A DNA stretch of 64,000 nt from Haloferax sp. Atlit-12N (GTDB lineage Archaea > Halobacteriota > Halobacteria > Halobacteriales > Haloferacaceae): NCBI RefSeq assembly GCF_003383095.1, contig NZ_PSYW01000001.1:1178001-1242000 (forward strand), given 5' to 3'. The notes under the pieces are model-generated. The model saw only the letters and a list, made by a program, of their open reading frames with translations, had not been told where the DNA came from and ran no database searches. The translations under genes were made by a program, and so were the position numbers. Of this stretch, positions 27,804 through 45,371 are shown in pieces. The stretch's first letter is position 1, and every line of letters begins with the position of its first letter.

Positions 27804-27972
27804 CTCTGACTTTGACGAAAGCGAGGACGAGCGCCATCGCGACCAGGGCGACCACGAGGTGGACGTCTTCCGACAAACCCAGCCAGTCGGCGACGACGTC
27901 GACGACAAGGACGACCGCGACGATGTTGACGAACGTCTCGATGACCGGGACGGTCGGGTCGGCATCAGTCAT
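27784..27972 (-). CDS. 62-residue two-span membrane protein
   Basis: The frame starts MTDADPTVPVIETFVNIVAV; helices are at about 10-28 and 38-54, with a basic tail KVRVERGVR. The start overlaps the upstream stop by eight bases (ATGACTGA). Confidence 0.6.
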   Translation of the reverse strand: MTDADPTVPVIETFVNIVAVVLVVDVVADWLGLSEDVHLVVALVAMALVLAFVKVRVERGVR

Positions 27973-28201
27973 CGCCCTCCTCGATACCAACATTGACGAG
28001 ATCGTCGAACGCGTAGGTTGCAGCTCCACTCGAGGAGACCAGCGTGACGACGAATCCGACGATAGCGAATGTGCCCGTCACAGTCGGTGCGATGCCGGAT
28101 TGATAGCCGGTGTAGCACAGTACGATCACGCAGACAGACACGTACATCGTCACTTGGTACTGCCAACGCTCGAACCGTAGTGAGAGACTCGACGAACTCA
28201 T
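27965..28201 (-). CDS. 78-residue two-span membrane protein, first of the micro-gene operon
   Basis: The ATG at 28201 gives MSSSSLSLRFERWQYQVTMY. Two hydrophobic helices follow, and the protein ends in the acidic FDDLVNVGIEEGDD. It heads eleven overlapping leftward micro-genes. A TATA box and a GC palindrome lie upstream. Confidence 0.65.
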   Translation of the reverse strand: MSSSSLSLRFERWQYQVTMYVSVCVIVLCYTGYQSGIAPTVTGTFAIVGFVVTLVSSSGAATYAFDDLVNVGIEEGDD

Positions 28202-28256
28202 CGAGAACCACCACCAGAACCCGAGAAAATCCCGAAATCGAATCTGACCGGGGGTC

Positions 28257-28298
28257 GCGCGCGCAGGCGCGCGCATAGCGCGAGTGCGCAAATATAGG
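28257..28298 (-). promoter_or_regulatory. promoter and GC palindrome of the micro-gene operon
   Basis: On the minus strand CCTATATT (28291-28298) is a TATA box. About 26 nt downstream, at the predicted transcript start, lies a palindrome of two GCGCGCGC blocks separated by AG (28257-28274). Confidence 0.55.
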
Positions 28299-28345
28299 CA
28301 AAAGTCAATAGGGGTGTGTGCTGTGTGTGAGTGTCTGGTCTCATC

Positions 28346-29194
28346 TCAGGCTTCCTCCGCGAATCGCTCTAAGTCGACGTCCGGTCTGTTTTCCAGAATC
28401 AATTTCACCTTCTTCGCATTGCGCATCGAAGCACCGTAGTGAACCTCGATGAGTTCAGACGCGATGTAGGGCTGCTTGTTGCCGCCGTGGATCGACACCA
28501 CGCGGCCGATCCCCTCGTCGACGATCTCTTGGGCGAGTTCGCGCGGGTCGAGGTCGAGTTCTGACTCGTCCTCGTCGTCGTCAGGGTCGATTCGCTCATT
28601 CTTTTTCTTCTTGTCACGGCGTTTGAACACCTCCCAGAGTTCCGTGCCTTCGAGCGATGGGAAGGAGTCTCGCATATCCGGCTCCGGCCACTCGCCGGTC
28701 TCCCATTTTTCGTCGAGTGACTCACGGGAGTACCCACGGAGTTTCCCCCGCTGGTTTCGCGGGATTTTGAGTGCCGCGAGTGCTCGACGTTTTGCGAGCG
28801 TTGTCGGGATATCATCGTACCCCTGATACCCCAACATGATGAAATACTCGCTCGTCCGAACGTCGAGGAGATCTTTTTCGGCATCCTTCTGTTCGCTATC
28901 CATTGCATCGCGCTTGTAGAGTGCACGTGCCGCGTCCATGACCGGGATTGCAGACCGTTCTGGCGCGGTTGCCATGGTGCGCTTGAACTCGTCTCTCTCA
29001 CCCCAGACGACGCGGTCCAAGACTGACTCGGGCGTCGGGTCGAGGCCGCGAACATCTTGCCAGAGCCACGTCAGTTGGTTCATCAGCGTCGACTTCCCGT
29101 CCCCTTCCTCTGCGATGACTAGGATGATTGCGTCGTACTGTTTCTCGATTCGCCGTTCGTGGATTTTCTCAACCCATCGCTGAATTTTCTCCAT
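28346..29194 (-). CDS. P-loop NTPase of the element
   Basis: The 282-residue protein has Walker A AEEGDGKS at residues 28-35, after the strand DAIILVI. A hydrophobic strand (YFIMLGYQGYDD) may carry the Walker B or sensor function. A Lys-rich linker (KRRDKKKKNERID) leads to an acidic C-terminal helical domain. The ATG at 29194 is preferred over GTG 29203 because of the upstream GAGGTGA. It is the only recognisable nucleotide-driven enzyme near the structural cluster and could power genome packaging or transfer. This role is inference. Confidence 0.72.
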   Translation of the reverse strand: MEKIQRWVEKIHERRIEKQYDAIILVIAEEGDGKSTLMNQLTWLWQDVRGLDPTPESVLDRVVWGERDEFKRTMATAPERSAIPVMDAARALYKRDAMDSEQKDAEKDLLDVRTSEYFIMLGYQGYDDIPTTLAKRRALAALKIPRNQRGKLRGYSRESLDEKWETGEWPEPDMRDSFPSLEGTELWEVFKRRDKKKKNERIDPDDDEDESELDLDPRELAQEIVDEGIGRVVSIHGGNKQPYIASELIEVHYGASMRNAKKVKLILENRPDVDLERFAEEA

Positions 29195-29204
29195 CTTCGT
29201 CACC

Positions 29205-29666
29205 TCATGTGAACATGGCCGAAGTCTCCGCCTCGACTTTGTCTTCGGGCTCTTCCTTCTGCGTCCGTCCGGCTTTCAAGTAGCCGATTTCCCACGCCGA
29301 GCGTCGAATGTCGAGCATGAACTCGTGCATCCAACCCGGCGACGAAGTCGTCAGCGAAACCGACTCGAACCGCTCGATGAATCCGTCTTCTCCGAGCCAC
29401 CGGTCGAGAATCTCTCCGTACAGCTCGACGTCATCCTCGTCGTTCTCCATCTCTGGGATGAGACGGAACGCAGCCGCCTTGATTAGCGATCGAGCTTCGG
29501 CCGCGTCTTCTGCGCGGATTTGGGCGTCTTCAGCGTGCGCCGCATCGATATACGCCCACGCGTTGAGCGCGTCATCGACCGCACGAGCATAGCGGTCTGA
29601 GACCTTCTCGTAGTTCGAGTAGCCATCCCACCGCGTCCCACGCTTTTTGGGATTCGAGTCGCTCAT
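29205..29666 (-). CDS. helical soluble protein, unknown
   Basis: The ATG at 29666 gives MSDSNPKKRGTRWDGYSNYE, and 153 mostly helical residues follow (AHAEDAQIRAEDAAEARSLI). GGTGGAG precedes the start. It lies just upstream of the NTPase gene in the same leftward operon, so it may be its partner. No known domain is seen. Confidence 0.65.
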   Translation of the reverse strand: MSDSNPKKRGTRWDGYSNYEKVSDRYARAVDDALNAWAYIDAAHAEDAQIRAEDAAEARSLIKAAAFRLIPEMENDEDDVELYGEILDRWLGEDGFIERFESVSLTTSSPGWMHEFMLDIRRSAWEIGYLKAGRTQKEEPEDKVEAETSAMFT

Positions 29667-29944
29667 CACTCCACCTGGGACTCCCACATCCGCATGAGTT
29701 CCTGATTCTCCACGTCGACCTCGTCGCCGTCAAGAACAGGGTGCAGTTCGAGGTACGGCAACGAATCGTCACCAGGGATGACCAGCTCTGCGCGCAAACT
29801 TCGAGACGGCTCATTCGGGAACGGTGCTGAGTCCAGTTTCTTCGAGATCGTCACGCGCACGTTCTCGTCGTTGCCTGTCACAGAGAACGACCCAAGCGAC
29901 TTGATGACCGGACCATTTCGACGGTGTTTCGTCGATAGTGCCAT
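29666..29944 (-). CDS. small beta-rich protein, first of the NTPase operon
   Basis: The 92-residue protein reads MALSTKHRRNGPVIKSLGSF, with strands around VTGNDENVRVTISKKLD and an acidic tail. The ATG at 29944 lies 29 nt from a GTATTAC TATA-like box, so it is probably leaderless. Its stop overlaps the next start (TGATG). Confidence 0.6.
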   Translation of the reverse strand: MALSTKHRRNGPVIKSLGSFSVTGNDENVRVTISKKLDSAPFPNEPSRSLRAELVIPGDDSLPYLELHPVLDGDEVDVENQELMRMWESQVE

Positions 29945-29969
29945 GTCCAAGAAATTCTAGCCAACCGAC

Positions 29970-30076
29970 GTAATACTTCTGAGCAATCTGTACAGATGCT
30001 GTACAACCGCTCACGTATTCATGTTCAAATTCTCAGAAATACTATATGTGGGAGAAATAAACGCCGATTTAGGAGG
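29970..30076. promoter_or_regulatory. divergent control region with paired TGTACA sites
   Basis: The leftward NTPase operon has a TATA-like box at 29970-29977. The rightward structural cluster has ACTATATG at 30041-30048 and a strong Shine-Dalgarno AGGAGG at 30071-30076. Between them two TGTACA palindromes (29989-29994, 30000-30005) are spaced 11 bp centre to centre, one helical turn. Confidence 0.6.
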
Positions 30077-30084
30077 CACCCAAT

Positions 30085-30351
30085 ATGCTTGACTTCATCA
30101 AGATCACCGCCAAATCGGCGGTCGCAAACGCCCGGTCGGAAGACCGAGCACAGACCAACCTCGTCGGACTATTCATCGGCCTGATGATTGCGGCTATCGT
30201 CGCAATTCAGGTCTTCATCCCGGTCGTCAACGATGCAATCGCGTCGTCGAACGTTTCCGGAACCGAAGCAACGATTCTCGGACTGCTGCCGCTCTTCGCG
30301 GCGCTGCTCCTTCTGATCGCGCTCGCGTCGCCCCTCATGCGTCGCATCTAA
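30085..30351 (+). CDS. 88-residue two-span membrane protein, first of the structural cluster
   Basis: A soluble N-terminus (MLDFIKITAKSAVANARSED) precedes helix 1 (LVGLFIGLMIAAIVAIQVFI), a short outer loop with a sequon (ASSNVSG), helix 2 (LLPLFAALLLLIALAS) and a basic end MRRI. It has the best Shine-Dalgarno of the cluster, so it may be an abundant particle membrane protein. This is inference. Confidence 0.7.
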   Translation: MLDFIKITAKSAVANARSEDRAQTNLVGLFIGLMIAAIVAIQVFIPVVNDAIASSNVSGTEATILGLLPLFAALLLLIALASPLMRRI

Positions 30352-30372
30352 CCACCACCAGGGTACTTTATT

Positions 30373-30804
30373 ATGAACGCAAAAGGGATTGCAGCAGTTC
30401 TGATTGCCGCTACGATAGCGGCGACGCTGTTCATGCCAATCTCGAACACCGTCTCCGGGAACACCGGCACGCAGTCGGTGGTCAACGAGACCGCTACTGC
30501 TGATGTCGGGACCGCGGTCGACCTCGACGGCTACGAGGTCGTCGTCGATTCTGAAACCGTCTACTACGACAACGGTACTGGCTGGAATACAGCTACTGCT
30601 GGGACGGACTACAGTTTCGACGACACATCCGCGAGCGTCACCGCGCTGTCCGGCGGAAGCATCGATGACGGCGCAGCGCTCCGAGTGAGCTACGACTATC
30701 AAGCGACCAGCGGATCAACGACCACTATTACCGGTCTCATCCCGCTGTTCGTGGCGTTGCTCATCCTCGGAGTGCTCGCCGCTAAAACCATGGACGGACT
30801 CTGA
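30373..30804 (+). CDS. small secreted-type membrane protein with YYDNG ectodomain
   Basis: The 143-residue protein has an N-terminal hydrophobic helix (IAAVLIAATIAATLFMPI), an Asp/Thr-rich ectodomain of about 90 residues, and a C-terminal membrane helix (LIPLFVALLILGVLAA). The ectodomain segment VYYDNGTGW, then GTDYSF and ALRVSYDYQ, resembles the membrane-proximal part of the protein at 39980. Confidence 0.7.
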   Translation: MNAKGIAAVLIAATIAATLFMPISNTVSGNTGTQSVVNETATADVGTAVDLDGYEVVVDSETVYYDNGTGWNTATAGTDYSFDDTSASVTALSGGSIDDGAALRVSYDYQATSGSTTTITGLIPLFVALLILGVLAAKTMDGL

Positions 30805-30813
30805 GGTAGCCCC

Positions 30814-31119
30814 ATGCTCCTCACCGTTTTCGCCCTTTTATTGGCGCTCAGTATTGGCGTCTTCATCGTTGGCTACGTCACCGGCTATCACGAGATCGCA
30901 CTCATCGGAGCGGTCATCGTCTTCGGAGTCGGCGTCATGGTCACCGGGACGACGCTTGAGTACCAGAGCGGCAAGACAGAGGTCGCCGTCGACGCGAACG
31001 AGACGCAGATCAATTACGACTACACGCCGGTCGAGACACCCACGCGGCTCCCACTTGGATCACTTGTCATGCTGACTGGTGGGGCGCTCGTTCTCCGGAG
31101 TCTCGACTCCTTCAGATAA
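30814..31119 (+). CDS. 101-residue membrane protein
   Basis: Two or three hydrophobic helices are at about 1-20, 28-47 and near the end (LGSLVMLTGGALVL), with a soluble strand-rich part between (GKTEVAVDANETQINYDY). No known family. It follows the two previous small membrane genes. Confidence 0.65.
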   Translation: MLLTVFALLLALSIGVFIVGYVTGYHEIALIGAVIVFGVGVMVTGTTLEYQSGKTEVAVDANETQINYDYTPVETPTRLPLGSLVMLTGGALVLRSLDSFR

Positions 31120-31122
31120 CCC

Positions 31123-31746
31123 ATGACTCAACCAAAATCCCGAACCCCGAACATCCCTGACAAACATCGGAGTGGTGGCCCACAATCCAGTCTCGAAGTG
31201 ATGGAGAAGGCCATCGAATCAACCGACAGAGACCAGTTCCTGTCGGACGCCAACCTCGGTCTCGGCAACTACAAAGACGCCGAGATGTGGCAGCAAATCG
31301 AGAGCTACAAGGCCGGCATGTTCGCCGAAGCGGCATTTTCGGAGACAATTCTCGAACGGGCCATCGACGAAGCAAAAGTCGAGTTGGCGCTCAACGGGTG
31401 GACCTTCTGGAGCGAAGACGAGAACCGCTACGACTGGAAGCCCCTCGAAGAAGTCGAGGGACACGATGAGGAATCTCCGGACGACATCCGCGAGCGAGGA
31501 GAAACCATCTGGCACGAGCTGCCAGACGCTGAAAAAGCCGCAGCGCTCGAAGACCTCGTCGGTCTCACGGGAGAATGGACGAACCCCTTCTACCGGATGA
31601 TGATGGCTCGTCACGAGACATCGCGCTCTCGCGACGCCCGACTCATCGACAACATCTTCGGCCGCATCCGGCACGTCATCTCTGAGAACGACGACGGCAA
31701 GAAGAAAGGAGGAATCCTCAGCCGCAATCGGGGTGAGTCGCGATGA
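31123..31746 (+). CDS. soluble helical protein of the structural cluster
   Basis: The 207-residue cytoplasmic-type protein (MTQPKSRTPNIPDKHRSGGP at its start) is acidic and helical in the middle, with Arg/Lys and Gly near the end (RIRHVISENDDGKKKGG). No domain is recognised. It may be an inner particle or assembly protein. The next start overlaps its stop. Confidence 0.65.
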   Translation: MTQPKSRTPNIPDKHRSGGPQSSLEVMEKAIESTDRDQFLSDANLGLGNYKDAEMWQQIESYKAGMFAEAAFSETILERAIDEAKVELALNGWTFWSEDENRYDWKPLEEVEGHDEESPDDIRERGETIWHELPDAEKAAALEDLVGLTGEWTNPFYRMMMARHETSRSRDARLIDNIFGRIRHVISENDDGKKKGGILSRNRGESR

Positions 31747-31949
31747 ACGTCGCAGGTGGCGTCTCAGTCATGAATACAGGGATTCTGTTTGCCCTCTTCA
31801 CCGAAGAGTTCGGTTCTGGTCCAGCCGAATACGCTAACGCGATCGTGCTCATCATGTTCGTCGGTTTTCTGTACATGATGTCCCCCCAACTCGAGTTAGT
31901 CCTCGACGACCTTCGGCAGATGGCTGACCGAGGTGATCGAGATGAGTAA
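31743..31949 (+). CDS. 68-residue single-span membrane protein
   Basis: The start overlaps the previous stop (ATGA). Glu-rich residues around TEEFGSGPAEYANA precede one membrane helix (IVLIMFVGFLYMM), then an acidic tail. The end overlaps the next gene. Confidence 0.6.
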   Translation: MNVAGGVSVMNTGILFALFTEEFGSGPAEYANAIVLIMFVGFLYMMSPQLELVLDDLRQMADRGDRDE

Positions 31950-32493
31950 TCCAGACGAAGAAGCAGTCGCTCTCCCCGACGGACCAACCGCAAACGGACC
32001 CACAAAAGACGACGGGGTTGTGATGCCACCGGACGTTCGCCAGTCCCGATTCGGCTTCCTCGGGACTGCAATCAAGCAACGGCGGTACGAGCAGAAGAGG
32101 AAGAAACTCGCGAACAAAGGATACGTCGAGTGGCGACTTATCGACTCGCAGTTCCCCCGGCCGAAGTTCATCAAGCCGAAGGCAAAGGGCGGCGGGATGC
32201 TCGAATACGAGCATGACGGGGAGACCTATCTCTTCCCGCGAAACGCGATGATCCCCTCGGCACAGACCGGGATGTGGACAGTCTTCCACAAGAAAGGCCA
32301 AGCCGATCCGATAAACCTCCGCGAACCGGTTCGACACTCGATCGAGGCCGACACGCTCACGCAGTACCTCGAAAAACGCGTGACCACCAGTCCGCCCGGC
32401 CTCCTGTCGCGACTCGACATCAACCCGAAAGACCTCGTCATGTACGGGATGATGGCTATCGTCGCCTTCGCGCTTATTCAGGGGATGATCTGA
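31942..32493 (+). CDS. basic protein with a C-terminal membrane anchor
   Basis: The 183-residue protein starts MSNPDEEAVALPDGPTANGP and has a basic middle (IKQRRYEQKRKKLANKGYVE; RPKFIKPKAKGGGMLEYEH). It ends in one hydrophobic helix (MYGMMAIVAFALIQGMI). GAGGTGATC just upstream is a strong Shine-Dalgarno. The basic domain may bind DNA or lipid head groups beneath the membrane. Confidence 0.65.
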   Translation: MSNPDEEAVALPDGPTANGPTKDDGVVMPPDVRQSRFGFLGTAIKQRRYEQKRKKLANKGYVEWRLIDSQFPRPKFIKPKAKGGGMLEYEHDGETYLFPRNAMIPSAQTGMWTVFHKKGQADPINLREPVRHSIEADTLTQYLEKRVTTSPPGLLSRLDINPKDLVMYGMMAIVAFALIQGMI

Positions 32494-32676
32494 ATGTCGT
32501 CACAACGCATCTCACGAGATTCTCGGTTCATGCTCATCGCCGTCGATGAGCGTAAATCGAAGAGTCTCCCACCGGGAACACGGCTCATCGCACAGGCGCA
32601 GCGACTCGAAGACCTCTCGTCAACCATCGAAGCCAAAACCGGCGTTCGGAGGAGGGATAACGATGGGAATCCGTGA
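32494..32676 (+). CDS. 60-residue small basic protein
   Basis: The frame starts MSSQRISRDSRFMLIAVDER and has an amphipathic helix and Arg-rich end. The start directly follows the previous stop and its end overlaps the next gene by 14 bases. No motif is visible. Confidence 0.5.
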   Translation: MSSQRISRDSRFMLIAVDERKSKSLPPGTRLIAQAQRLEDLSSTIEAKTGVRRRDNDGNP

Positions 32677-33271
32677 CCGCCTCCGCTCGCAGGACGATTC
32701 GTACTGGGACCAGTACGAGGAGAGTCGCACTGATCGGATCAAAAAGCGATTCTCAGGGAGCGGATGGGACGATGACGGAGCTGCGCGACGGGCCGCCAAA
32801 CGCGGAGCGGCAGCAGCGAAAGAACGACTCGAGAACGTCGACAGACGACGGATCGTCGAAGCCCTCAGACAAGCCGGGTCGGGTTCCCCCCGCCCGTCTC
32901 GCGGGACTGCAGAAGAACGTGAGATGGCCCAGCGTGCCGAAGAAGCCGCAACGGCCGGAGCGGTCGTCGATGCCACTTTCGACGGAGTAACCGCCCCTGA
33001 ACAGACCGGCTTCTTCGCGATGGGACGTCGAAGTGATGGAGCAAGTGTCCAGTCTGATGGCACAGCCGTTGAAGACAACCAGCCCAGAGTCGACGACCTC
33101 GTCTACGGTGCCGGCGTGCCCGGACAAAATGACATGGGGAGCATGGGGCTCGATGTCGGTGTCGGGGTTGGTTTCAGACCTGCCGCCGACGACGACCAGG
33201 ACGACGCCGACGATGAGGATCGAGGCATGTTCGAGTTCGACGACCCGTTCGGCGTTGGAGGTGGGTTCTGA
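32663..33271 (+). CDS. Gly/Asp-rich protein, unknown
   Basis: The ATG at 32663 follows GGAGGAGGG. The 202-residue protein has a charged helical N-terminal half (SGWDDDGAARRAAKRGAAAA), a Gly-rich segment (GSMGLDVGVGVGFRP) and a very acidic end (DDDQDDADDEDRGMFEFDDP). A similar Gly-Leu-Gly-Val segment occurs at the C-terminus of the next protein. Its stop overlaps the next start (TGATG). Confidence 0.62.
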   Translation: MGIRDRLRSQDDSYWDQYEESRTDRIKKRFSGSGWDDDGAARRAAKRGAAAAKERLENVDRRRIVEALRQAGSGSPRPSRGTAEEREMAQRAEEAATAGAVVDATFDGVTAPEQTGFFAMGRRSDGASVQSDGTAVEDNQPRVDDLVYGAGVPGQNDMGSMGLDVGVGVGFRPAADDDQDDADDEDRGMFEFDDPFGVGGGF

Positions 33272-35934
33272 TGGGTCTTCGAGATGTCCTCAACTCCAGC
33301 GGTGGCGGCAGTGACGAAGACCAACAGGCCGCAGAAGAGTATGACGAGAATGTCCGCGATTCGCGAGACGATGCAACATCAACCTCGTCGTCAAGCTCGC
33401 CAGACTCATCGTCATCTTCGCGCGACCGAGACCGAGAAATCGTCGAACAGCGAAAAAGTCAGCGGCGGGGCGACCGGTACCAAACCGGCAATGAATCACC
33501 CTCGGGTTCGGACAGTAACACCACCACGTCGTCCGGGTCATCCACAAGCTCTCAAGACACGACAGACCGGCAGGCAGTCGAACAGTACAAAGAGGCCGTT
33601 CAAGACTCAAAAGAGAGACAGTCTGAGACGGTCGACAAAGGAACGACAATTCTCGCCGACTCTCCCAACAGATTCGAGACTGTCGAAGAGCGCCTGAACC
33701 AAACCACCGACCCGTCGAGAATTTCGATCACCGAGGGAGGTTCCAGTTCAGGAGTCGTTGCCGAGTACACGGCTGACGGCCGCGAGTATCGTCAAGAGTT
33801 CCGCTTTGAGGATCGAGAACGTCTCCAGAACCTCAGAGACAACGCTCGTGCGCGGAAGACCGACTCGGGAATCGAAATTCTCGACGCCGTTCGATACAAC
33901 GATGATACCGATTCCTACAGGGACGAACGACAGATGTCTATCGTCGAAGAGACACTCCGCGACGACTTTGGAGAGCCTAACCGGATCTCTGTCACCCAGT
34001 CCGACCAGAGTGACGACGTCTACGTCGCGGAAGCGGAGTACGGCAACTCGACCTACACGCGCTTCTTCTCATTCGGTTCTCAGACCGAAGAGGAGCTGCT
34101 CGAGGCGTCCAAGCGGCGCAAGAAGGATCAGCAGAAGGTGAAGTCCACGACTGAGCAAGACCCAGTCCCAGAACAAGACACTCAGCTCACCAAGAGTCCG
34201 ACAGGCCAGATTTCGACCCGAGAACGAGAGCGTGCCCGAGACGCTCTCGCAGACAAAGCCGGAGTCGGCGCGAGAGATGTGAAAATAACTGGCCGAACTG
34301 AAGACGGTGGCTATCGCGGGCTTGCAGTCGACTTTGAAGAAACCCAGCGAAAAGCCGTCTCAGAAGCCGTCGAGAGCGCCGACAGAGCGAGCGACGCAAT
34401 TGATTGGGAACAGGCGGTGCAAGATCCCGTCGGATTCCTCAGGGGTGCTGGTCGTGAGCGCGAGGAAGCCCTGCTTCGCCCGATCTCGAAGTTCGGAGAC
34501 GGTGCGAGAGAATCGATTGACGACATCAATCGCCGACTCACTCCTGGTGATGATGTCTACACCGATCGAGACCTTGCAAACGACATCGTTGGCGGGTTGA
34601 GCGATAACAAAGAAGGCATCGCGACCGCCGCGGCTGCGGGTGTCGTCGCTCCAGAGCCTGCGACGAGTGTCGGAGGTGCGATCACTCTCGGAGGAATCGC
34701 TGTCGCCGGACTCGCTGCTGACGCCGTCCTCAATCAGAACGAGGGGGAACTCGGAGTTCCCGAGGAGCAACAGCAGTCCGAGGTCGATGTCCCGGCAGAT
34801 CCCGCATCCAGCAATTCCGAGGTCAACGTACCCGAGGACGGTTCAGCGTCGATGTCAGAAGTGGACGTTCCTGCGGATGGCACGATGCAGCGACCCGAGG
34901 TTGGCGTGCCCGACCAGAATGAGCCCGACGTTCTGACCATCTCGGCCGCTGAGCTTGTGTCTCGTGGTCGGCAAAAAGAGCGAGACGAAGAGGAAGAGCA
35001 GATCGACCCACTCGCGGAATCCATGCGTGAGATGGAACGCTCGCAGCGGCAGGGCTTCTCGAACAAGCCACCTGAGAGCTACGTCGATGTCGATGAGGGC
35101 GGCTACCAGTATCAAGACTGGGAGCCTGTCGAAATCATCCGCCGGGAAGAGGAGACTGCTGCGCAGCAGTCTGACGTCATGGACGCGGCACAGTCGACCC
35201 AACAGCCCTCGGTCAACGTCGACGTCGGGAGCTTTGGCGGGAGTTCGTCGCAGCCGGAAACCCTGCCGCTCCTCGACGATGCTCAAGACGCAGAACAAGA
35301 CCTCGCAGAAGAAGTCGTCACAGACGTTGGTGCCGATCAACGAGAGTCTCAACGGCCTGACGAGGTGTTCGGCCAGACTCCAGGAGCAGATGTCGGAGTC
35401 GGCTCGGTGACCGTCGGTGAGATCGGCACGACCACAGCCACGGACACCGCGACTTCGACAGAGACCGCGACCCCCAACGGCTACGGTGCACCTTATCCAA
35501 CGGCCTTCGCCGACGAGACACCCCCAGCCGACGGTTATGGCTACAGCTACGAGTTCACCGGGAGAAATCAAAGGCAGCGTCGAAGCGCTGGCGAGGGAAC
35601 CAATTCTCGAGACTTCGGCCTCGGTCTTGGCGTCGATTCTCGTGGTTCTGCAGGGGACCGATTCGCATCTGGATGGTACGCTGAGACTGTCACGGACATC
35701 GCGACCACCGGACAGAGTGACGAAGATCCACTCACGCAAGCCGAACTCGCGGCCCTCGCCGGTGAAGGTCTCTCGTACGGTGAACTCCCGACAGCCGAGA
35801 TGGTCCGAGGCGATCCTGAAACGAGAGAACGTATCGACGACGTCGAATCGCTGCTCGGTTTCGCGAACTCGGGCGACGGAGTTGACGACGAAAAAGAGAC
35901 CGACAGCTGGTTTACCGGCTGGGGGAGGTTCTGA
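33271..35934 (+). CDS. large repeat-containing structural protein
   Basis: The 887-residue protein has a Ser/Asp/Arg low-complexity N-terminus. Two or three related modules of about 70-90 residues span residues 130-370 (DPSRISITEGGSSSGVVAEY; EPNRISVTQSDQSDDVYVAE; then DVKITGRTEDGGYRGLAVDF). A hydrophobic Ala/Gly/Val segment lies at about 450-487. Four to five tandem 13-residue repeats start at residue 503 (SEVDVPADPASSN type), and an acidic Gln-rich C-terminal part follows. No enzyme motif. It is the longest gene of the cluster and probably the main scaffold of the particle. Confidence 0.72.
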   Translation: MGLRDVLNSSGGGSDEDQQAAEEYDENVRDSRDDATSTSSSSSPDSSSSSRDRDREIVEQRKSQRRGDRYQTGNESPSGSDSNTTTSSGSSTSSQDTTDRQAVEQYKEAVQDSKERQSETVDKGTTILADSPNRFETVEERLNQTTDPSRISITEGGSSSGVVAEYTADGREYRQEFRFEDRERLQNLRDNARARKTDSGIEILDAVRYNDDTDSYRDERQMSIVEETLRDDFGEPNRISVTQSDQSDDVYVAEAEYGNSTYTRFFSFGSQTEEELLEASKRRKKDQQKVKSTTEQDPVPEQDTQLTKSPTGQISTRERERARDALADKAGVGARDVKITGRTEDGGYRGLAVDFEETQRKAVSEAVESADRASDAIDWEQAVQDPVGFLRGAGREREEALLRPISKFGDGARESIDDINRRLTPGDDVYTDRDLANDIVGGLSDNKEGIATAAAAGVVAPEPATSVGGAITLGGIAVAGLAADAVLNQNEGELGVPEEQQQSEVDVPADPASSNSEVNVPEDGSASMSEVDVPADGTMQRPEVGVPDQNEPDVLTISAAELVSRGRQKERDEEEEQIDPLAESMREMERSQRQGFSNKPPESYVDVDEGGYQYQDWEPVEIIRREEETAAQQSDVMDAAQSTQQPSVNVDVGSFGGSSSQPETLPLLDDAQDAEQDLAEEVVTDVGADQRESQRPDEVFGQTPGADVGVGSVTVGEIGTTTATDTATSTETATPNGYGAPYPTAFADETPPADGYGYSYEFTGRNQRQRRSAGEGTNSRDFGLGLGVDSRGSAGDRFASGWYAETVTDIATTGQSDEDPLTQAELAALAGEGLSYGELPTAEMVRGDPETRERIDDVESLLGFANSGDGVDDEKETDSWFTGWGRF

Positions 35935-36125
35935 TGAGCCCGTATTCGTTTCCACTCGCGATGTTCTCGTTCTTCGGGTTTGTCGCTATCATCCCGGTCT
36001 GGTTGTGGTTCCTCAACGACCGTCTTCCAGGCCTGCCTCTGGAGTTCCAGTTCATTGCGGGACTCGTTCTTCCCGCCGCGCTGCTTGTCTTCATTGGATC
36101 ATGGATGCAGCCCGGAGGTGCCTGA
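35934..36125 (+). CDS. 63-residue two-span membrane protein
   Basis: MSPYSFPLAMFSFFGFVAII starts the first helix; the second is AGLVLPAALLVFIGSWM. It starts inside the stop codon of the large gene (TGATG). Confidence 0.62.
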   Translation: MSPYSFPLAMFSFFGFVAIIPVWLWFLNDRLPGLPLEFQFIAGLVLPAALLVFIGSWMQPGGA

Positions 36126-36127
36126 CG

Positions 36128-36328
36128 ATGCGAGCCGAGTTGCAGCTCGTCGATGCCGTCATGGGATTCTTCGTCCTGGTCGCGATCCTCGCGCTCGCTC
36201 CGTTCACCTACCAGTTTATCGGCATGGTGTCGGCAGAGTCAGACCCGTTGACTGCACTCCTCATGCAGTTGATCCCTCCGCTACTCCTCATCGGGCTCGT
36301 CGTCTCAATCGGGGTGAGTGCCAGATGA
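36128..36328 (+). CDS. 66-residue two-span membrane protein
   Basis: MRAELQLVDAVMGFFVLVAI begins helix 1; helix 2 is LMQLIPPLLLIGLVVSIGV. It has the same size and topology as both neighbours, suggesting a set of three related small membrane proteins. Confidence 0.62.
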   Translation: MRAELQLVDAVMGFFVLVAILALAPFTYQFIGMVSAESDPLTALLMQLIPPLLLIGLVVSIGVSAR

Positions 36329-36546
36329 TGGGTTCGAGAGGCCGGATCACCGTGCCAGATGTCGTGTACACCACTGCGACGCTCGCGTTCGTCGGAGCAC
36401 TTGCTCCGGTCTTTTACGACGGTCTTGACGCGAACGCGGGACAGTTGGGTACTGGAGAGGCCTTCCTTTTCCAGTTGATTGGCCCCCTTCTCGCGTTAGT
36501 ATTGATGTCAGTTATCTGGTTCAAAGCGACGAGAGGTGTGTCATGA
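36325..36546 (+). CDS. 73-residue two-span membrane protein
   Basis: MMGSRGRITVPDVVYTTATL begins the protein; the second helix is FQLIGPLLALVLMSVIWF. The start overlaps the previous stop (ATGATG) and its stop overlaps the next ATG. Confidence 0.62.
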   Translation: MMGSRGRITVPDVVYTTATLAFVGALAPVFYDGLDANAGQLGTGEAFLFQLIGPLLALVLMSVIWFKATRGVS

Positions 36547-38573
36547 ACCTTCGTTCCGAAGGTGCACGATTCGCTCTTGTCATTCTCGTCCTGTTGCTGG
36601 TGAGCGCTCCGGTTTTGGGAGCCACATATCAGTTCGAAGACTTTGAAGACGGCCTCGATGGATGGACAGAGAGCAGCGGCAGTTGGTCGATTACTTCGAC
36701 ATCCTACGAGGGCACTCAAGCAGTCGAATCCACATCTTTCGGCTACCTGAGGTCGAATGGAACTGCAAATTACACCGATGTTAATGCGACATTCCGTGTC
36801 TACCTCGAACCTGATGCAACGTCCCGATTCCGTCTTGGAGACGATGGCACTGACTATTATCGAGCGACCGTCGACCAAGCAGGGACTGTCGAATTTGGGG
36901 GAGTCTCAGATGGAGGGGTTACCGACAACACAACCACCGCCACAGTCCCCGCGGACGAATGGCTGCTCGGAGAAATAAGATGGCGCTCTGACGACGTCCA
37001 ATTCATTCTCAAGGACCAAGCTGGGAATACGATAACGACACTAACCGAGCCACGCGAAAACGTTGGAACTGGTCAAATAACACTCATCGACCTCTCTGGA
37101 ACCGTTCGTTTTGACGACATCACAACCGAGACTCGGAACCGCGATGCCACTATTTCGAACGCCACTCCATCAGCCGGTTCCCTGCAAACAGAGAGTTCGG
37201 TTGAGTTGTCTGCTGATGTTGCGGACGAAGACTTCGATATCGGTGCAACAGATACCGTCTACTTCCTAGATGGTACCGGAGCGACGATCTCGTCGACGAC
37301 CGTCACTGAAAATCGAACTGTCACTGCCAACTGGTCGGGAGCAAATGCCGGCTCGAACAACTGGAGTGTCGTGGTCAACGAACCCGCTTCCGGAAACACA
37401 TCATTCGGCCCGTTCAGCTTCGAATATCCGCAGAACCTCACCATTAAGAACGAGAGCGACACCCAGTTGCTCGACAACCTCTCTGAGCCAGTCACGCTAC
37501 GATTTTACTACGAGAACGGCAGCACCGCAGAGGTTGTTGAACGACAGACATCAAACGGCATTGCGTCTCTTTCTGGACTCCCTGTTGACCGTTCGTTCGT
37601 GGTCGTTGCTGATGCACCCGGGTATCTCCCGCGTCGCATCTTCGTCAGCTCGCTCCTCGAACAGCAGTCAATCTACCTCCTGCCCAGCTCAGCACAACAC
37701 GTCGAGAATCTTCTCACCTTGCAGGACTACTCTGGCGATTACGCGCCAGACGAGACTGTGCTTATCATCCAACGATCAATCAATGGGTCGTGGGAGACGG
37801 TTCAGGGGGACTACTTCGGTGCCACGGGTGAATACAGCGCTCAGCTGGCCTACAACGTCCGACACAGAATGATCCTCAGAAATACGCGAACGGGTGATCA
37901 GAAGGTCGTTGGACCGTACACACCCATTTCAGATGGCACGAAGAACATCAAGGTCACTCGTGAAGGAGACATCGAGCTTGTTCTCGACGCGCCTCGGGTC
38001 CTCTTTGATCCGTCGGTTGGGTCGGTTTCAGCCGTCAGCAACACCCAACTCGTCGTCACAGTCGACAACCAGAGTAGCGAACTCAGATCATGGAGTGTCG
38101 AGGTCATCTATCGTAACCAGACGGCGCAGGAAACGCTGTTCCTGACTAATGAGACCTCACCGGAGGGTGGAACGATTTCACCTGCTCTCGACCTCTCAGA
38201 GCGCGCAGGGGGGAACGTCACAGTCCTTGTCAACTACACGACTGAAGACGGACAAACGGGGCAGCGCTCTGAGACGTTCATCGTCCGCGAGACGTTCGCG
38301 AATCAGTATTCGCTCCTCTCTGTGCTCGGGAACATCGGGACGATGATTCCATCTCCGAATCTCTCGATATTCACGACGTTCATCGCAATTATCGTCTCAG
38401 TCCTTGCAGCGACTGGTGTCGCATCGGCGTTCCGCGCGAGCACCGAACTCGTCGGAGTCACCGTCGTTGGCACGCTGGCATTCTTCAGCATCATCAACTG
38501 GATCGGCGTCCCGATCGTGTTCGTCTCAGGAATGTCACTAATCGCGTTCGCAGCGCTCAGGAGGGGTCTGTAA
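36543..38573 (+). CDS. large secreted membrane protein with LamG-like ectodomain
   Basis: The 676-residue protein has a signal peptide (ARFALVILVLLLVSAPVLGA). A jelly-roll lectin-like domain follows (about 27-195, DGLDGWTESSGSWSITST), then beta-sandwich repeats to about residue 590 with many Asn-X-Ser/Thr sequons, and three or four membrane helices at the end. It would expose a glycosylated ectodomain outside the membrane, as expected for a particle surface or attachment protein. It is the largest exported protein of the element. No sequence family is named with certainty. Confidence 0.75.
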   Translation: MNLRSEGARFALVILVLLLVSAPVLGATYQFEDFEDGLDGWTESSGSWSITSTSYEGTQAVESTSFGYLRSNGTANYTDVNATFRVYLEPDATSRFRLGDDGTDYYRATVDQAGTVEFGGVSDGGVTDNTTTATVPADEWLLGEIRWRSDDVQFILKDQAGNTITTLTEPRENVGTGQITLIDLSGTVRFDDITTETRNRDATISNATPSAGSLQTESSVELSADVADEDFDIGATDTVYFLDGTGATISSTTVTENRTVTANWSGANAGSNNWSVVVNEPASGNTSFGPFSFEYPQNLTIKNESDTQLLDNLSEPVTLRFYYENGSTAEVVERQTSNGIASLSGLPVDRSFVVVADAPGYLPRRIFVSSLLEQQSIYLLPSSAQHVENLLTLQDYSGDYAPDETVLIIQRSINGSWETVQGDYFGATGEYSAQLAYNVRHRMILRNTRTGDQKVVGPYTPISDGTKNIKVTREGDIELVLDAPRVLFDPSVGSVSAVSNTQLVVTVDNQSSELRSWSVEVIYRNQTAQETLFLTNETSPEGGTISPALDLSERAGGNVTVLVNYTTEDGQTGQRSETFIVRETFANQYSLLSVLGNIGTMIPSPNLSIFTTFIAIIVSVLAATGVASAFRASTELVGVTVVGTLAFFSIINWIGVPIVFVSGMSLIAFAALRRGL

Positions 38574-38953
38574 TGCGATTCAGTCACATCCTGCTGGTCT
38601 ACTTCGTGATGGGCGCGATGATGTTCGGAGGCGGCGTCATCGAGTGGAATCAGTCAGGCGTCGTTGGCATCTTCGTCGAATACTCGCCCGGCGAGCAGGT
38701 CGACGTGAATCAAGACACTGCGAACGACCTCGAACGTCTCGGCGGTCCGATCCAAGAGGCAGCTGAGTCCATCGGTGGCGGGGCGCTCATTGCGCTCTGG
38801 AGCATCCTGTCGAACATCATCGGCTACCTATTCTGGCCGATAACGACATTGCTGAGTCTGAACGCTCCACTTGAGATTGTCCTTATCTTCGGTGGGATAC
38901 CGACCGTCGCGTTCTTCGGCGGCATCATCACACTCATCGGGAGCACCTCATGA
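38573..38953 (+). CDS. 126-residue membrane protein
   Basis: MRFSHILLVYFVMGAMMFGG begins a first helix; a soluble loop of about 40 residues follows, and then two or three hydrophobic helices. It directly follows the ectodomain gene and may form its membrane partner. Confidence 0.65.
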   Translation: MRFSHILLVYFVMGAMMFGGGVIEWNQSGVVGIFVEYSPGEQVDVNQDTANDLERLGGPIQEAAESIGGGALIALWSILSNIIGYLFWPITTLLSLNAPLEIVLIFGGIPTVAFFGGIITLIGSTS

Positions 38954-39429
38954 TTCGACACACCCAAAGCATGCTCGTCGTGTGTCTCCTGGTCGCGACG
39001 ATTGTCATCCCAGGCATCGTCGTCGCACAGGAATCGAACAACTCGACGGACATCAACGAAACCGCACCGTACTACGCGAACAACTCATCAAACGTCTCCG
39101 TCGACACGTGGCTCGAAGGCCGTTCAGATCCAACCCTCGACAACATCACGAACATCGCGACGCGGATCGGACCGTTCGTCATCGGCGGAGGGAGCACGAG
39201 TATCGGAAGTGCACAGGCTGGGGCGCTCGTCACCGGTCTAATGGTCCTTGCCGTCTTCCTCGGAGCAGTCATGGGGTCTGGCGTCGGATCGGCTGGAGGC
39301 GCGACGATCGCGGTCGCGATCGCCGCGGCTATCGTCCAAGTCGGTCTCGCACCGCAATGGATGTGGGCCATCGTCGTGCTCGGAGTCGGGATCGTGATGG
39401 CGACCGTCTCTATCCGCGCGTTCAGGTGA
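38950..39429 (+). CDS. 159-residue membrane protein with signal peptide and sequons
   Basis: A signal-like helix (MLVVCLLVATIVIPGIVVA) precedes a short outer region with Asn-X-Ser/Thr sites (ESNNSTDINETAPYYANNSS). Three hydrophobic helices with Gly-rich turns (GSGVGSAGGATIAVAIAAAI) follow. Starts overlap as CTCATGA with the previous gene. Confidence 0.65.
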   Translation: MIRHTQSMLVVCLLVATIVIPGIVVAQESNNSTDINETAPYYANNSSNVSVDTWLEGRSDPTLDNITNIATRIGPFVIGGGSTSIGSAQAGALVTGLMVLAVFLGAVMGSGVGSAGGATIAVAIAAAIVQVGLAPQWMWAIVVLGVGIVMATVSIRAFR

Positions 39430-39433
39430 CACC

Positions 39434-39865
39434 ATGGATCCCCTCCCAACGTCCACCCCGCTCGACGCGCCAACGACCGCGTGCAGCGACCCGACGGTTG
39501 TTGTCGATGGAATCCCCGTGTGTACGAAGCAAGGCCCAGAGTGGCTTGTCAGGCTCATGTACGCACCACCAGAATGGCTCGGGCTCGCACTCAAGTTGCT
39601 CATCGTCGCAGTCGTCGTGTTGACAGCGCTCGGATACTACCGACACGGCGTCGACAAGCAGGTAATCCGAGAGAGCGCAGAGAACGGCGCGGCGTGGCTT
39701 CTCGTCCTCGCGCTTGCGACGACTCTTCGCGGGACCGGAATCGCCCCTGGTGGCTACTTCGCGACGGTACTCGTGGCTGGCGTCGGAGGTTTCGGACTGA
39801 CGAAGCTCGGAGCCATCGTGATTGAGCGCCTCGACGAACGGAGGTCATCTGAGATTAGCGAGTAG
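39434..39865 (+). CDS. 143-residue membrane protein
   Basis: An N-terminal part with two Cys (TACSDP, PVCTKQ) precedes three hydrophobic helices (LKLLIVAVVVLTALGYY, WLLVLALATTL, TVLVAGVGGFGL). It is the last gene before the next promoter and the only one of the cluster with a Cys pair in a short outer segment. Confidence 0.65.
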   Translation: MDPLPTSTPLDAPTTACSDPTVVVDGIPVCTKQGPEWLVRLMYAPPEWLGLALKLLIVAVVVLTALGYYRHGVDKQVIRESAENGAAWLLVLALATTLRGTGIAPGGYFATVLVAGVGGFGLTKLGAIVIERLDERRSSEISE

Positions 39866-39979
39866 AAAATCTGTACAGTCCCCTTCCAATCCCTGTCCAA
39901 TTCCTCAGAAGTTATACACGTTTTAGAAAGCATTCCATCGGTATGCGAAGCCATCAGAATTCACAGAGGCGATAAGGCC
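39866..39979 (+). promoter_or_regulatory. promoter region before the spike genes, with CTGTACAG
   Basis: CTGTACAG at 39871-39878 matches the paired operator sites at 29989-30005, and a degenerate CTGTCCA follows at 39893-39899. TATA-like TTATAC (39912-39917) and CGTTTTAGA (39919-39927) precede the ATG at 39980. Confidence 0.5.
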
Positions 39980-40963
39980 ATGAGCGACCCGGAACAGATT
40001 GTCAAACTTCTCGTGTCTGCGCTCATCGTCGCAGCGCTGATTCCAGCGTTCATGGGAATTAGTGGTCCGAGTGGCGAGGTCAGCTTCGAACCAACGCTCG
40101 GAAATCACACCGTCGATAAAACGACCCGCGAGATACCCGGAAGCGTCAACGTCGAGGCGACGACTGGCAACGCGCTCTACTTCGACGGCAGCGCCTCGGT
40201 CTCTTCGAACGCGGGCTCAAACATGACCAACGGGTCGTGGACAGTCTGCACGCTGGCGCAGCTCGATGAGAGCGCGGACGCCAACGCGACGTACTCCGCG
40301 TTCGCTCATGACAACGCGTCAGTTCTCATCGACTACGACCACGGCAAGTGGGCCGCGTACTACGACAACGGCTCCGCAGACGCCCGTGCGACTATCGATG
40401 CACCGTCGCCGAAAGACGGGCTGACGCCAGTCTGCGCGCGCTACGACGAATCATCTGAAGAACTCGTCGTCTCTCGCGACGGTCAAGTCTCGTCACCGGA
40501 TGTACTCGACGCCAGTCCCAACACGCGGAACGCGACGTTCGCGTGGGTTGGGACGCTCGACGAGGTCCGGATCATCGGCGAGGACGTCAACAACTCGACC
40601 CTCACGGCGTACGCGAACGACCCGGTCCAACCGTTGTCGGTCAACCACCTCGGTCGAATGATGTTCGACGAGGGGAGCGGCTCGACCTCGACCGTCTACT
40701 ACGACGACGGTGACGCGAACCTCTATCGCACGAGCTGGACGGGCGGCGTCGAAGGACCGAATCTCAAGCGTGGAGTCGATTACCAGCTGTTCGGTGACCC
40801 ATTCACCGTGAAGGTCCTCTCGGGGAGCTACCTCGAAGGAGCACCAGTAGTCTGGGTGTCGTGGGGATCTGGCCTCCCACTCGACATCATGGACATTCTG
40901 GGTCTGCTGATGGCCCTGCTGCTGGTTGTCGCGTTCGGCAACAAAATCATGGAGGCCATGTGA
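39980..40963 (+). CDS. LamG-like membrane-anchored surface protein
   Basis: The 327-residue protein has an N-terminal membrane helix (VKLLVSALIVAALIPAFMGI). A jelly-roll (LamG/concanavalin-like) domain spans about 45-215 (ALYFDGSASVSSNAGSNMTN; WVGTLDEVRIIGEDVNNSTL). A compact module with VYYDDGDANL, GVDYQLFG and WVSWGSG comes next, and a C-terminal membrane helix ends the protein. It is probably a surface spike component. The next gene starts inside its stop codon. Confidence 0.75.
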   Translation: MSDPEQIVKLLVSALIVAALIPAFMGISGPSGEVSFEPTLGNHTVDKTTREIPGSVNVEATTGNALYFDGSASVSSNAGSNMTNGSWTVCTLAQLDESADANATYSAFAHDNASVLIDYDHGKWAAYYDNGSADARATIDAPSPKDGLTPVCARYDESSEELVVSRDGQVSSPDVLDASPNTRNATFAWVGTLDEVRIIGEDVNNSTLTAYANDPVQPLSVNHLGRMMFDEGSGSTSTVYYDDGDANLYRTSWTGGVEGPNLKRGVDYQLFGDPFTVKVLSGSYLEGAPVVWVSWGSGLPLDIMDILGLLMALLLVVAFGNKIMEAM

Positions 40964-42813
40964 TGGACGAGAATCAGAACGAGAGAAATCAACAGTCAGA
41001 CAGCGAGGAGAGTAGCTCGTCGGTCCCCGTGACTCGACGCCAAGTCATCGGCGCGCTTGCAAGCGCTGGTGTGTTCGGCTCGATCGCGAGCGGAGCGAGT
41101 TCGAACGAGGGTGACGGAATCACCGAGATAGGAGGCGGTTCGATGGCATCAGAAATAGGAGAACTACGAATCCAGCAGTTCCAAGGAACGTTCGCAGAAC
41201 GACCAGACGCAGGCGTGGCCGACCGGGTCTACATCGTCGACGATCCAGGCCACGCCGAACACGGGGCAGTTTACTACGACGACGGCAGCTCGTGGACACT
41301 CCAAGATCGGAAGGTCGGAAAGCTAAGTGCAGAGAAGGTAGATAACACCGTCAGAGTTGCGGCATTTGATGGGGAGACAGGGGGGGAGAAAATACAGAGC
41401 GCCCTCGATGAAGCATCAACGCTTTCGGGGACGACAGAGGTGGTTGTGAGTGGTCGGGGACCAGATAGCCTGTCAAGTTCTGGAGCACTCTATTCAAGCG
41501 GATGGCGGCATAGCGGGCTAACAATCTCGGAGAACACCGTCCTGCGGCTTGTTGGTGGGGCATATCTCTTCTTGGCAGATGGGTCTGACAGTCGCTCGAT
41601 AACAAATGCCGACCACACCAATCAAACGGAGAATATCCACATTATCGGGGACGGGAGTGCACACATCGACGGAAACGCGGCTAACCAAAATCCCACCAAT
41701 TCCCCCGACCGTCTTGGGATTCAATTCGTTCGTATGTCCAATATCTCGGTGCATAATGTGGCCATCGGACCAACGCACGCATGGGCTTTAACGGGGGCGA
41801 TTGTTGACGATTTCAGTATCAGTGATATTAAATTCGCACAAGACGGGAGTACCGCAAACCAAGACGGCGTACATCTGGTTGGTGCGTGCTCGAACGGCGA
41901 CATTTACCACATCCGTGGAGTCACCCATGACGATAGCATCTCTCTCATCGCACACGACCAAGACGATGGCATGAAAGAGATTACTGGCGGCGGCAGCATC
42001 ACAGACATCAACATCGCGGACGTGAGATGCACCGGTGTTGGTGCCAAAGGCGTTGTTAACCTCGCATGCGGAGACGGAAACGACATGAATGGCATCTCTA
42101 TCGACCATATCCATGCACGTCCGGGGACGGGCGGCTCAGTGCTTCAAATCGCAGGCGGGCCGTTCATTGAGTCTCGCGATGGAGTTCTGCCAACGACGGA
42201 TGAGTTCACAGGCATCTCCGCATCGCATCTCACGCGAGCAGACGGGGACCAGTCTGACCTCGTCCGGATTGAAAATAATATTGGGGTCCTTAGTCTCAGC
42301 GACCTGTCTTACACGGGCGATGCGTTCGAGCTGGTTCGGCAATGGCAGGGCTACACCTGCGACACGCTCAAAGTTGACGGCGCGACCTTCGAGTCCGTCA
42401 ATGGGACCGGAAATATGTTCAATCTTCAAGATGAGATAATCAATCTGCATCTAAGTGGCCTCACATCACGCCAGACCGGCAGTACCAACCGTGTGTTGTT
42501 TGACGGAAGTGGGACGGGGATAATCAACAACGGGACCGTCCGTGATATAGAAGCAGAGATAGACGGAACTGTTGTCGAACTTCCCGGAACTGCGAATATC
42601 ACCTTATCGGATGTTGGCGGGGATATTAGGGGTCAAGTGGTATTCACTTCGCCATCTGGCCTAAAAGTTGATGGAGGCCTCCCGCCGATTGATGTGACCA
42701 CACTTCCAACCGTGCGAGGATCACAAGCATACCACGACGGGACAACAGGGACCGAGGGGCCTGCTCATTCCGACGGGACCGATTGGATTGACGCTACGCA
42801 AACCACTCTGTGA
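40963..42813 (+). CDS. Tat-exported right-handed beta-helix protein
   Basis: The 616-residue protein has a Tat signal peptide (VTRRQVIGALASAGVFGSIA, about residues 20-45). A short module at about 90-125 contains VYYDDGSSWTLQDRK. A long region with parallel beta-helix periodicity follows (for example ISVHNVAIGPTHAWALTGAI; IHIIGDGSAHIDGNAANQNP). There is no lipobox and no membrane anchor. The coding sequence after about 41340 is clearly more AT-rich than the first part. It may be a receptor-binding or surface-degrading spike. Confidence 0.75.
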   Translation: MDENQNERNQQSDSEESSSSVPVTRRQVIGALASAGVFGSIASGASSNEGDGITEIGGGSMASEIGELRIQQFQGTFAERPDAGVADRVYIVDDPGHAEHGAVYYDDGSSWTLQDRKVGKLSAEKVDNTVRVAAFDGETGGEKIQSALDEASTLSGTTEVVVSGRGPDSLSSSGALYSSGWRHSGLTISENTVLRLVGGAYLFLADGSDSRSITNADHTNQTENIHIIGDGSAHIDGNAANQNPTNSPDRLGIQFVRMSNISVHNVAIGPTHAWALTGAIVDDFSISDIKFAQDGSTANQDGVHLVGACSNGDIYHIRGVTHDDSISLIAHDQDDGMKEITGGGSITDINIADVRCTGVGAKGVVNLACGDGNDMNGISIDHIHARPGTGGSVLQIAGGPFIESRDGVLPTTDEFTGISASHLTRADGDQSDLVRIENNIGVLSLSDLSYTGDAFELVRQWQGYTCDTLKVDGATFESVNGTGNMFNLQDEIINLHLSGLTSRQTGSTNRVLFDGSGTGIINNGTVRDIEAEIDGTVVELPGTANITLSDVGGDIRGQVVFTSPSGLKVDGGLPPIDVTTLPTVRGSQAYHDGTTGTEGPAHSDGTDWIDATQTTL

Positions 42814-42822
42814 TATTGCTAT

Positions 42823-44153: not shown

Positions 44154-44215
44154 CCCGCTTCACTTCCACTTCGGTTTGCGACTGTTCAAATAATCGAACC
44201 TCGAATCGGTGAGAC

Positions 44216-45220: not shown

Positions 45221-45225
45221 CGCGG

Positions 45226-45357: not shown

Positions 45358-45371
45358 CCTCCCTCCAAATC

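Follow-up and report, generated by a model that had tools for sequence, protein, structure and literature searches.

Lemon-shaped proviruses of the LSV-48N group are already known from Haloferax, and for LSV-48N itself (PP151251) lemon-shaped particles were imaged and proteins were found by mass spectrometry; the accessible text of the same report describes none of its open reading frames (ORFs) as similar to a known capsid protein (PMC12714723). In the available part of another report, the Rep-Arvir family of replication initiators is placed in pleomorphic and lemon-shaped viruses, LSV-48N among them (PMC13107129). The present analysis concerns 64,000 nucleotides of Haloferax sp. Atlit-12N (NZ_PSYW01000001.1, positions 1,178,001 to 1,242,000; hereafter the window, this whole stretch), in which a first-pass annotation had singled out a rightward gene cluster at 30085-40963 and read it as the parts list of a membrane-bounded particle with surface spikes. 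We are highly confident that these genes make up the virion morphogenesis module of a provirus belonging to the spindle-shaped (lemon-shaped) viruses. Homology to LSV-48N and a capsid protein of the VP1 type speak for an extracellular particle with spikes and membrane proteins, whereas the earlier reading missed its spindle-virus type, the provirus around it and the foreign origin that the module appears to have. The element (21911-52636, 30.7 kb) seems, on sequence comparison, to be a chimera that kept the integration and copying genes of its relatives and exchanged its whole particle gene set for a distant one. It is the variant that is new here; neither a VP1-type capsid nor a swap of the virion module in this group is described in the accessible literature since 2023 on LSV-48N and lemon-shaped Haloferax proviruses. 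Genes are named below by their lower coordinate (Table 1), and we infer that, among the genomes compared, G264 is Halomicrobium urmianum, G375 Natrinema sp. DC36, G088 Halobaculum sp. CBA1158 and G099 Natronomonas pharaonis.

Judged by sequence, the product of 30085 is a VP1-type capsid protein. A profile made of this product and four haloarchaeal homologues was compared with 177,635 PDB sequences, and SSV19 VP1 (7xdi_A) was its sole significant match (E=1.3e-6), the next one lying at 0.41. A clade-only profile was run on 38 elements and viruses (6,074 ORFs), and its first four matches outside the clade were, in this order: (i) SSV1 VP1 (4e-7), which we take to be the SSV1 frame at 12567, (ii) BLv25 ORF2 (0.0077), annotated as major capsid protein (MCP), (iii) His1 ORF21 (0.042), presumably the His1 capsid protein, and (iv) SSV1 VP3 (0.083). 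It is the clade-only profiles that serve as evidence for the capsid, since E-values of iterated profiles are circular for the members that they include. In the reverse search, phrog_11172 (the SSV1 VP1/VP3 family), which matches the SSV1 VP1/VP3 frames at 1.5e-75 and 2.3e-14, had 30085 as its top match in the whole 4-Mb genome of the strain (8.7e-7) and detected the homologues of G287 and G264 at 2-4e-5; those of G123 and G035 were not found by it, and LSV-48N and BLv25 gave no match. Among 391 genomes of the class, the capsid profile matched only the window, G264, G123, G035 and G287, plus a weak match in G078 (616-aa frame, 6.2e-4). The single-sequence AlphaFold model of 30085 is a helical hairpin (pLDDT 79.1), and a tblastn search of phages with 30085, 31123 and 28346 gave nothing relevant. 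The next gene, 30373, encodes a capsid-like paralogue whose C-terminal (second) helix is related to the VP1-type protein (hhalign 89.3; profile 6.9e-7). A beta-rich part was expected in it because it matches LSV-48N CDS0019, annotated as an Ig-like tail protein; its single-sequence AlphaFold model is poor (pLDDT 59.6) and places such a part, at low confidence, between the two helices. Neither the profiles of 30373 and 36325 nor LSV-48N CDS0020 had an informative match in the PDB. An iterated profile of 30814 was discarded, as it had drifted onto the 30373 family through a fused G264 frame.

The ATPase and the spike are likewise homologous to proteins of spindle-shaped viruses. By hhalign, the ATPase profile matches LSV-48N CDS0023 (99.4), BLv25 ORF1 (96.1) and His1 ORF16 (91.0); at E<=1e-5, the ATPase has matches in six of the 391 genomes, its own included, with the C-terminal part only in G040 and G108. 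The spike matches LSV-48N CDS0012 (hhalign 100, 25.5% identity), and LSV-48N was its sole match at E<=1 among 50,697 phage records, so that no likeness to a spike of the pleolipovirus type was found. Neither the ATPase nor the spike profile had an informative match in the PDB. In the accessible text on LSV-48N, the most abundant viral protein of the supernatant has a beta-sandwich and resembles, in its C-terminal part, an SSV19 tail protein; CDS0012 fits this description, the identity of that protein being unstated there (PMC12714723). A spike profile built from eight elements matched 40 of the 391 genomes, in 28 of 86 genera, of which the weakest (E about 1e-5) are doubtful as members; stretches of 32 of these genomes were compared further, leaving aside the eight with the poorest scores (E 4e-11 to 1e-5). 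Window-type spike and capsid genes occur twice about 41 kb apart on one chromosome (G287:C1:455226 and 496430; L069, L070), and N. pharaonis carries its spike gene on a 23,486-bp contig (G099:C3) and also on the chromosome (G099:C1:1588509; L071, L096). Further along the module, 33271 matches LSV-48N CDS0015 (hhalign 94.3) and 38573 is weakly similar to CDS0011. The order of the module, by position, is kept in LSV-48N as well; the capsid slot holds the CDS0020 family in LSV-48N and a VP1-type protein, outside that family, in the window.

The borders of the provirus follow from sequence comparison. The ends of similarity to the window overlap, in the circular LSV-48N genome, exactly over 20796-20818, and the 23-nt tRNA-Pro repeat is therefore the att core. 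LSV-48N and related proviruses share this core, and their integrase, Rep-Arvir protein, second recombinase and Orc1/Cdc6 protein are 80-97% identical to those of the window at the amino acid level. The first-pass annotation saw no adjacent enzyme that would explain the cluster; the ATPase (28346-29203) and the integrase (51492) do explain it. A decayed remnant that no longer produces particles would be compatible with the same origin and is unlikely, though far from absurd. It would fit the single copy in the genome and two insertions relative to LSV-48N (48599-50134 and 50495-51319), but the genes of the integrase, of Rep and of those module proteins with homologues are open and intact, as are both att sites. 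The first insertion is a clean one of about 1.5 kb with a C-5 cytosine methyltransferase gene, the LSV-48N sides of which abut with a 10-nt overlap; the second, of about 0.8 kb, interrupts the homologue of CDS0031. The same genome holds a second integrated element at a tRNA-Thr (G000:C1:540480-542603; L118). It encodes a Rep-Arvir protein with 79% identity, an MCM helicase and a group of secreted and membrane proteins, one of which (594 aa) had no phage or plasmid match. A similar gene set is present in G112 and G078.

The particle genes of the provirus appear to have another history than its backbone. DNA identity to LSV-48N is 92-94% over 21911-26448 and 75-95%, in pieces, over 44158-52636; the sole similarity between 26448 and 44158 is a 68-bp patch (33421-33488, 84%). 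This patch lies in the large low-complexity gene 33271 and may reflect a conserved motif or a leftover of recombination. Accordingly low identities to LSV-48N are found for the ATPase (24%), 30373 (21%), 33271 (26%) and the spike (25%). A provirus of the same genus (G076) sits at the same tRNA-Pro with a module of the LSV-48N type, and its DNA alignment to the window stops at 26448 and restarts at 44162. The GC content is 0.574 at 26400-42820, compared to 0.61-0.63 in the element's flanks and 0.66-0.67 in the chromosome. The whole element could instead be a fast-diverging relative of LSV-48N whose virion module evolved faster, with no swap, as the conserved gene order and the recognisable homology of spike, ATPase, 30373 and 33271 to LSV-48N proteins would allow. 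This is very unlikely. LSV-48N and G076 have more diverged backbone genes (Orc1/Cdc6, Rep, recombinase and integrase at 73-85% DNA identity) yet an alignable module (66-81%), whereas the module of the window is unalignable to LSV-48N despite the close identity up to the left junction. Furthermore, the Rep tree pairs the window with LSV-48N (support 94/91; path 0.028 vs 0.30 to the next), whereas the spike tree (35 rows) places it in the H. urmianum-type clade (100/100) and a clade of window, LSV-48N and G076 is rejected (AU p=5e-9), in a tree with long end branches (median 0.92). With a backbone nearest to LSV-48N and a module that stands apart, the window is most simply explained by a swap in its own lineage.

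The left junction coincides with a palindromic site, GTTACGAGAA-TAGTCGG-TTCTCGGAAG, which precedes the start of the gene for a second, recombinase-like protein (25696-26316) by about 105 nt. GLRSDE, HDLR and a late tyrosine, which we take to be the tyrosine-recombinase motif, are visible in this protein, which had no match in Pfam, NCBIfam or the PDB. In all six pairs among the window, LSV-48N, G076 and G112, homology ends at most 3 nt from the edge of the site, which has no mismatch in LSV-48N, two in G076 and four in G112. Recombinase and site might form a dedicated exchange junction for whole downstream segments, including the coat-and-spike module, a proposal that we put forward as speculative and rather doubtful, the role of the recombinase being conjectural. 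Of the 11 elements with the recombinase gene, eight yielded no such site ahead of it, and a perfect 6-7-6 palindrome arose in 34 of 500 shuffles of the upstream stretch. Therefore, the palindrome alone proves little, and the argument for the site is its coincidence with the ends of homology. The alignment of LSV-48N with G076 is likewise interrupted at the site and picks up again at the ATPase genes, so that what is usually exchanged there may be only small cargo; the left end of the module swap itself may lie further right. Two degenerate copies of the site are present in G158 about 610 nt apart (L065:17190 and 17800), as if flanking a small cassette. If the proposal holds, one replication and integration backbone could carry virion types drawn from other host families.

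The cluster comprises 16 ORFs on the same strand, and not about 14 as first counted; as first described, they lie head to tail, with mostly 1-17 nt of overlap or at most 21 nt of spacing, apart from gaps of 52 nt ahead of 32546 and 114 nt ahead of 39980. Ten small proteins with one to three membrane helices had been announced. Their kind was right; a 19-residue Kyte-Doolittle scan gave 11 proteins of less than 200 aa with one to four hydrophobic helices (30085, 30373, 30814, 31743, 31933, 35934, 36122, 36325, 38573, 38950 and 39434), and 31123 and 32546 as soluble. The large protein that had been noticed is 33271 (887 aa), the sole large low-complexity product, and the two or three ectodomain proteins are two: 36543 (20 N-x-S/T) and 39980 (8 N-x-S/T), each with an N-terminal hydrophobic segment and a long sequon-rich ectodomain. 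For 36122, the true start is probably the ATG at 36128. The proposed comparison with other haloarchaeal clusters was successful: for 14 ORFs of the 16, a collinear homologue is present in three or more of the four genomes G264, G123, G035 and G287, the link of 30814 to G035 being counted via G123. The exceptions are 39980 and 31743-31949, the latter found in the window only and perhaps no gene. This order and conservation exceed chance. Synteny of the full window type is present in G264, G123 and G035, and in G287 by iterated profiles; pattern scans of genome contigs and viral contigs found no module relatives. The three minus-strand genes at 28346-29950 are part of the unit, the ATPase and its neighbour being divergent beside the cluster in relatives too.

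Since most cluster proteins are small and membrane-type and related elements are filed as plasmids, the locus might encode a membrane-vesicle or plasmid-vesicle element (pR1SE-like) and not a capsid virus. We consider this highly improbable in view of the VP1-type capsid and of a spike and an ATPase homologous to those of a virus with imaged particles. A host cell-surface or type IV pilus-like cluster, which small N-terminal-helix proteins and secreted ectodomains could resemble and which the first-pass annotation had kept as an alternative, is barely credible, as the scans made matched no pilin or pilus-machinery family and the homologues sit in plasmids and integrase-bearing proviruses, with att borders present.

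Several results weigh against the assignment to a spindle-shaped provirus with a VP1-type capsid. At E<=1, phrog_11172 also matched in four of 14 control genomes, and a Foldseek search with the single-sequence model of 30085 did not find SSV19 VP1 and returned nothing at E<=0.001 (best E 2.7). A six-frame search of the His1 and BLv25 records with the capsid profile gave no match, its hhalign comparison with the single His1 ORF21 was weak (5.6) and no relation to LSV-48N CDS0020, in the same slot, was detectable (probability 0.1). The likeness of the ATPase to SSV1 B251 is weak (hhalign 8.3), and no counterparts of 31123, 31933, 32546, 35934 and 36128 were detected in LSV-48N, His1, SSV1 and BLv25. 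Finally, the ATPase search found a single copy in the genome, so that no free form of the element was seen.

Compared with other known systems, the closest virion module found is that of the H. urmianum provirus/plasmid (NZ_CP084093; 23-73% identity), which differs by its Rep (24%), its integrase (41%) and its place of integration. In that genome, a 23.8-kb element, whose ends overlap by 13 nt, lies in the chromosome and is also repeated within a circular plasmid record of 75,827 bp, a double occurrence that speaks for activity in the same module clade. Plasmids of N. pharaonis (PL23), Natrinema sp. DC36 and Halobaculum sp. CBA1158 encode homologous spikes and ATPases but branch in the spike tree as different module lineages. 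The fuselloviruses SSV1 and SSV19 share the VP1-type capsid protein but differ in that (i) the SSV1 site lies inside D-335, whereas attR of the window (52614-52636) lies past the end of the integrase gene (52526), and (ii) the window has no convincing VP4 homologue, the nearest being 38950 (0.003), and only a weak B251 likeness. His1 (Halspiviridae) and the Halorubrum spindle-shaped virus BLv25 share the ATPase family and a weak capsid likeness; His1 differs by its type B DNA polymerase (ORF12), which had no match among 40 window genes, and by its terminal repeats.

Table 1. Coordinates of the provirus features in the window and the basis of their assignment
Feature	Coordinates	Strand	Basis
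tRNA-Pro (TGG); 3' end 21911-21933 = attL	21861..21933	+	ARAGORN; repeat; = LSV-48N 20796-20818
Rep-Arvir type replication initiator (DUF7845 + winged helix)	23263..25395	+	PF25227 E=1.1e-92; 97% identical to LSV-48N
Compact second tyrosine-recombinase-like protein, 206 aa	25696..26316	-	96% identical to LSV-48N protein annotated integrase
Palindromic site (7-nt spacer between 9-nt arms that differ by one mismatch); left limit of swapped segment	26422..26448	+	
Segment without DNA similarity to LSV-48N (68 bp excepted) or G076: apparent swapped virion module and cargo	26449..44157		
Spindle-virus type ATPase (LSV-48N CDS0023, His1 ORF16, BLv25 ORF1)	28346..29203	-	profile comparison
Conserved soluble protein beside ATPase	29205..29687	-	homologues G264, G123, G035
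Small conserved protein	29666..29950	-	homologue G264
Predicted major capsid protein, VP1 type, two-helix hairpin	30085..30351	+	SSV19 VP1 1.3e-6; SSV1 VP1 4e-7; phrog_11172 8.7e-7; model
Capsid-like paralogue (LSV-48N CDS0019 type) with two membrane helices flanking a beta domain	30373..30804	+	hhalign 99.3
Small membrane protein	30814..31119	+	homologues G264, G123, G035; hydropathy
Soluble module protein, clade-specific	31123..31746	+	iterated profile comparison
Small ORF, one hydrophobic stretch, possibly no gene	31743..31949	+	window only
Membrane-anchored module protein, clade-specific	31933..32493	+	iterated profiles; hydropathy
Low-complexity soluble protein	32546..33271	+	iterated profiles
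Large low-complexity protein, LSV-48N CDS0015 homologue	33271..35934	+	profile comparison
Two-helix membrane protein	35934..36125	+	iterated profiles; hydropathy
Two-helix membrane protein, paralogue of 36325	36128..36328	+	hhalign 97.3
Two-helix membrane protein, some likeness to BLv25 protein annotated MCP	36325..36546	+	hhalign 75
Spike: N-terminal hydrophobic signal, 20-sequon ectodomain, C-terminal membrane helices; CDS0012 homologue	36543..38573	+	
Three-helix membrane protein, probable LSV-48N CDS0011 counterpart	38573..38953	+	hhalign 59, same position
Membrane protein, N-terminal ectodomain, possible tail adaptor (weak)	38950..39429	+	SSV1 C792 0.003; SSV19 B210 5.7
Two-helix membrane protein	39434..39865	+	homologues G123, G035, G287
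LamG-like ectodomain protein, hydrophobic helix at each end, candidate receptor binder	39980..40963	+	Laminin_G_3 3.4e-4, below family cut-off
Tat-type N-terminus then GH28-like domain; cargo or accessory depolymerase	40960..42813	+	GH28 3.9e-5; N-terminus read from sequence
Sulfatase-like cargo gene, low-GC DNA (0.45-0.48)	42823..43794	-	PF00884 1.7e-6
Orc1/Cdc6-type protein	44216..45220	+	80% identical to LSV-48N
Tyrosine integrase adjoining right end	51492..52526	+	94% identical to LSV-48N
attR	52614..52636	+	21/23 nt same as tRNA end

Some other products may act on host glycans. In the accessible text on SSV19, the nozzle is C131, the adaptor B210 and the tailspike VP4, and virions degrade host glycan (PMC12042106). 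The product of 38950 is weakly similar to SSV19 B210 and to SSV1 C792/VP4 (hhalign 10 for the latter). The products of 39980 and 40960 are candidate glycan-acting parts. The C-terminal part of 39980 is 27% identical to the G264 homologue of 30373 (6.7e-4), which suggests a weak kinship with that family; the 30373 profile missed it and the capsid profile gave a weak 0.21. Downstream of the virion module, the exported GH28-like and the sulfatase-like genes (40960-43794) lie in low-GC DNA, and H. urmianum has a different Tat-signal protein there.

Sequence comparison establishes the provirus borders, the VP1-type capsid, the homology of ATPase and spike, and a module different from those of LSV-48N and of the same-genus relative; particle shape, infectivity and the role of each protein would follow by analogy. 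The integrase would excise the 30.7-kb element at the tRNA-Pro repeats and the Rep-Arvir protein, perhaps with Orc1/Cdc6, would replicate the circle. The shell would be built from VP1-type helical hairpins (30085) and the beta-domain paralogue (30373), and the ATPase would move or package DNA. The spike, held by its C-terminal helices, and possibly the LamG-like 39980, would bind host glycans.

Overall, a fusellovirus-type VP1 in the window and in four relatives connects this group of haloarchaeal viruses with the spindle-shaped ones of thermophiles, and a VP1-type protein in the corresponding slot points to CDS0020 as the capsid candidate of LSV-48N. In the spindle viruses of Thermococcales, the accessible text of one report presents the replication modules as highly exchangeable (PMC12934983); here, in contrast, the common backbone carries a different virion module. 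The apparent replacement of a whole virion module in a close relative, with mapped junctions, would be a natural experiment on host range.

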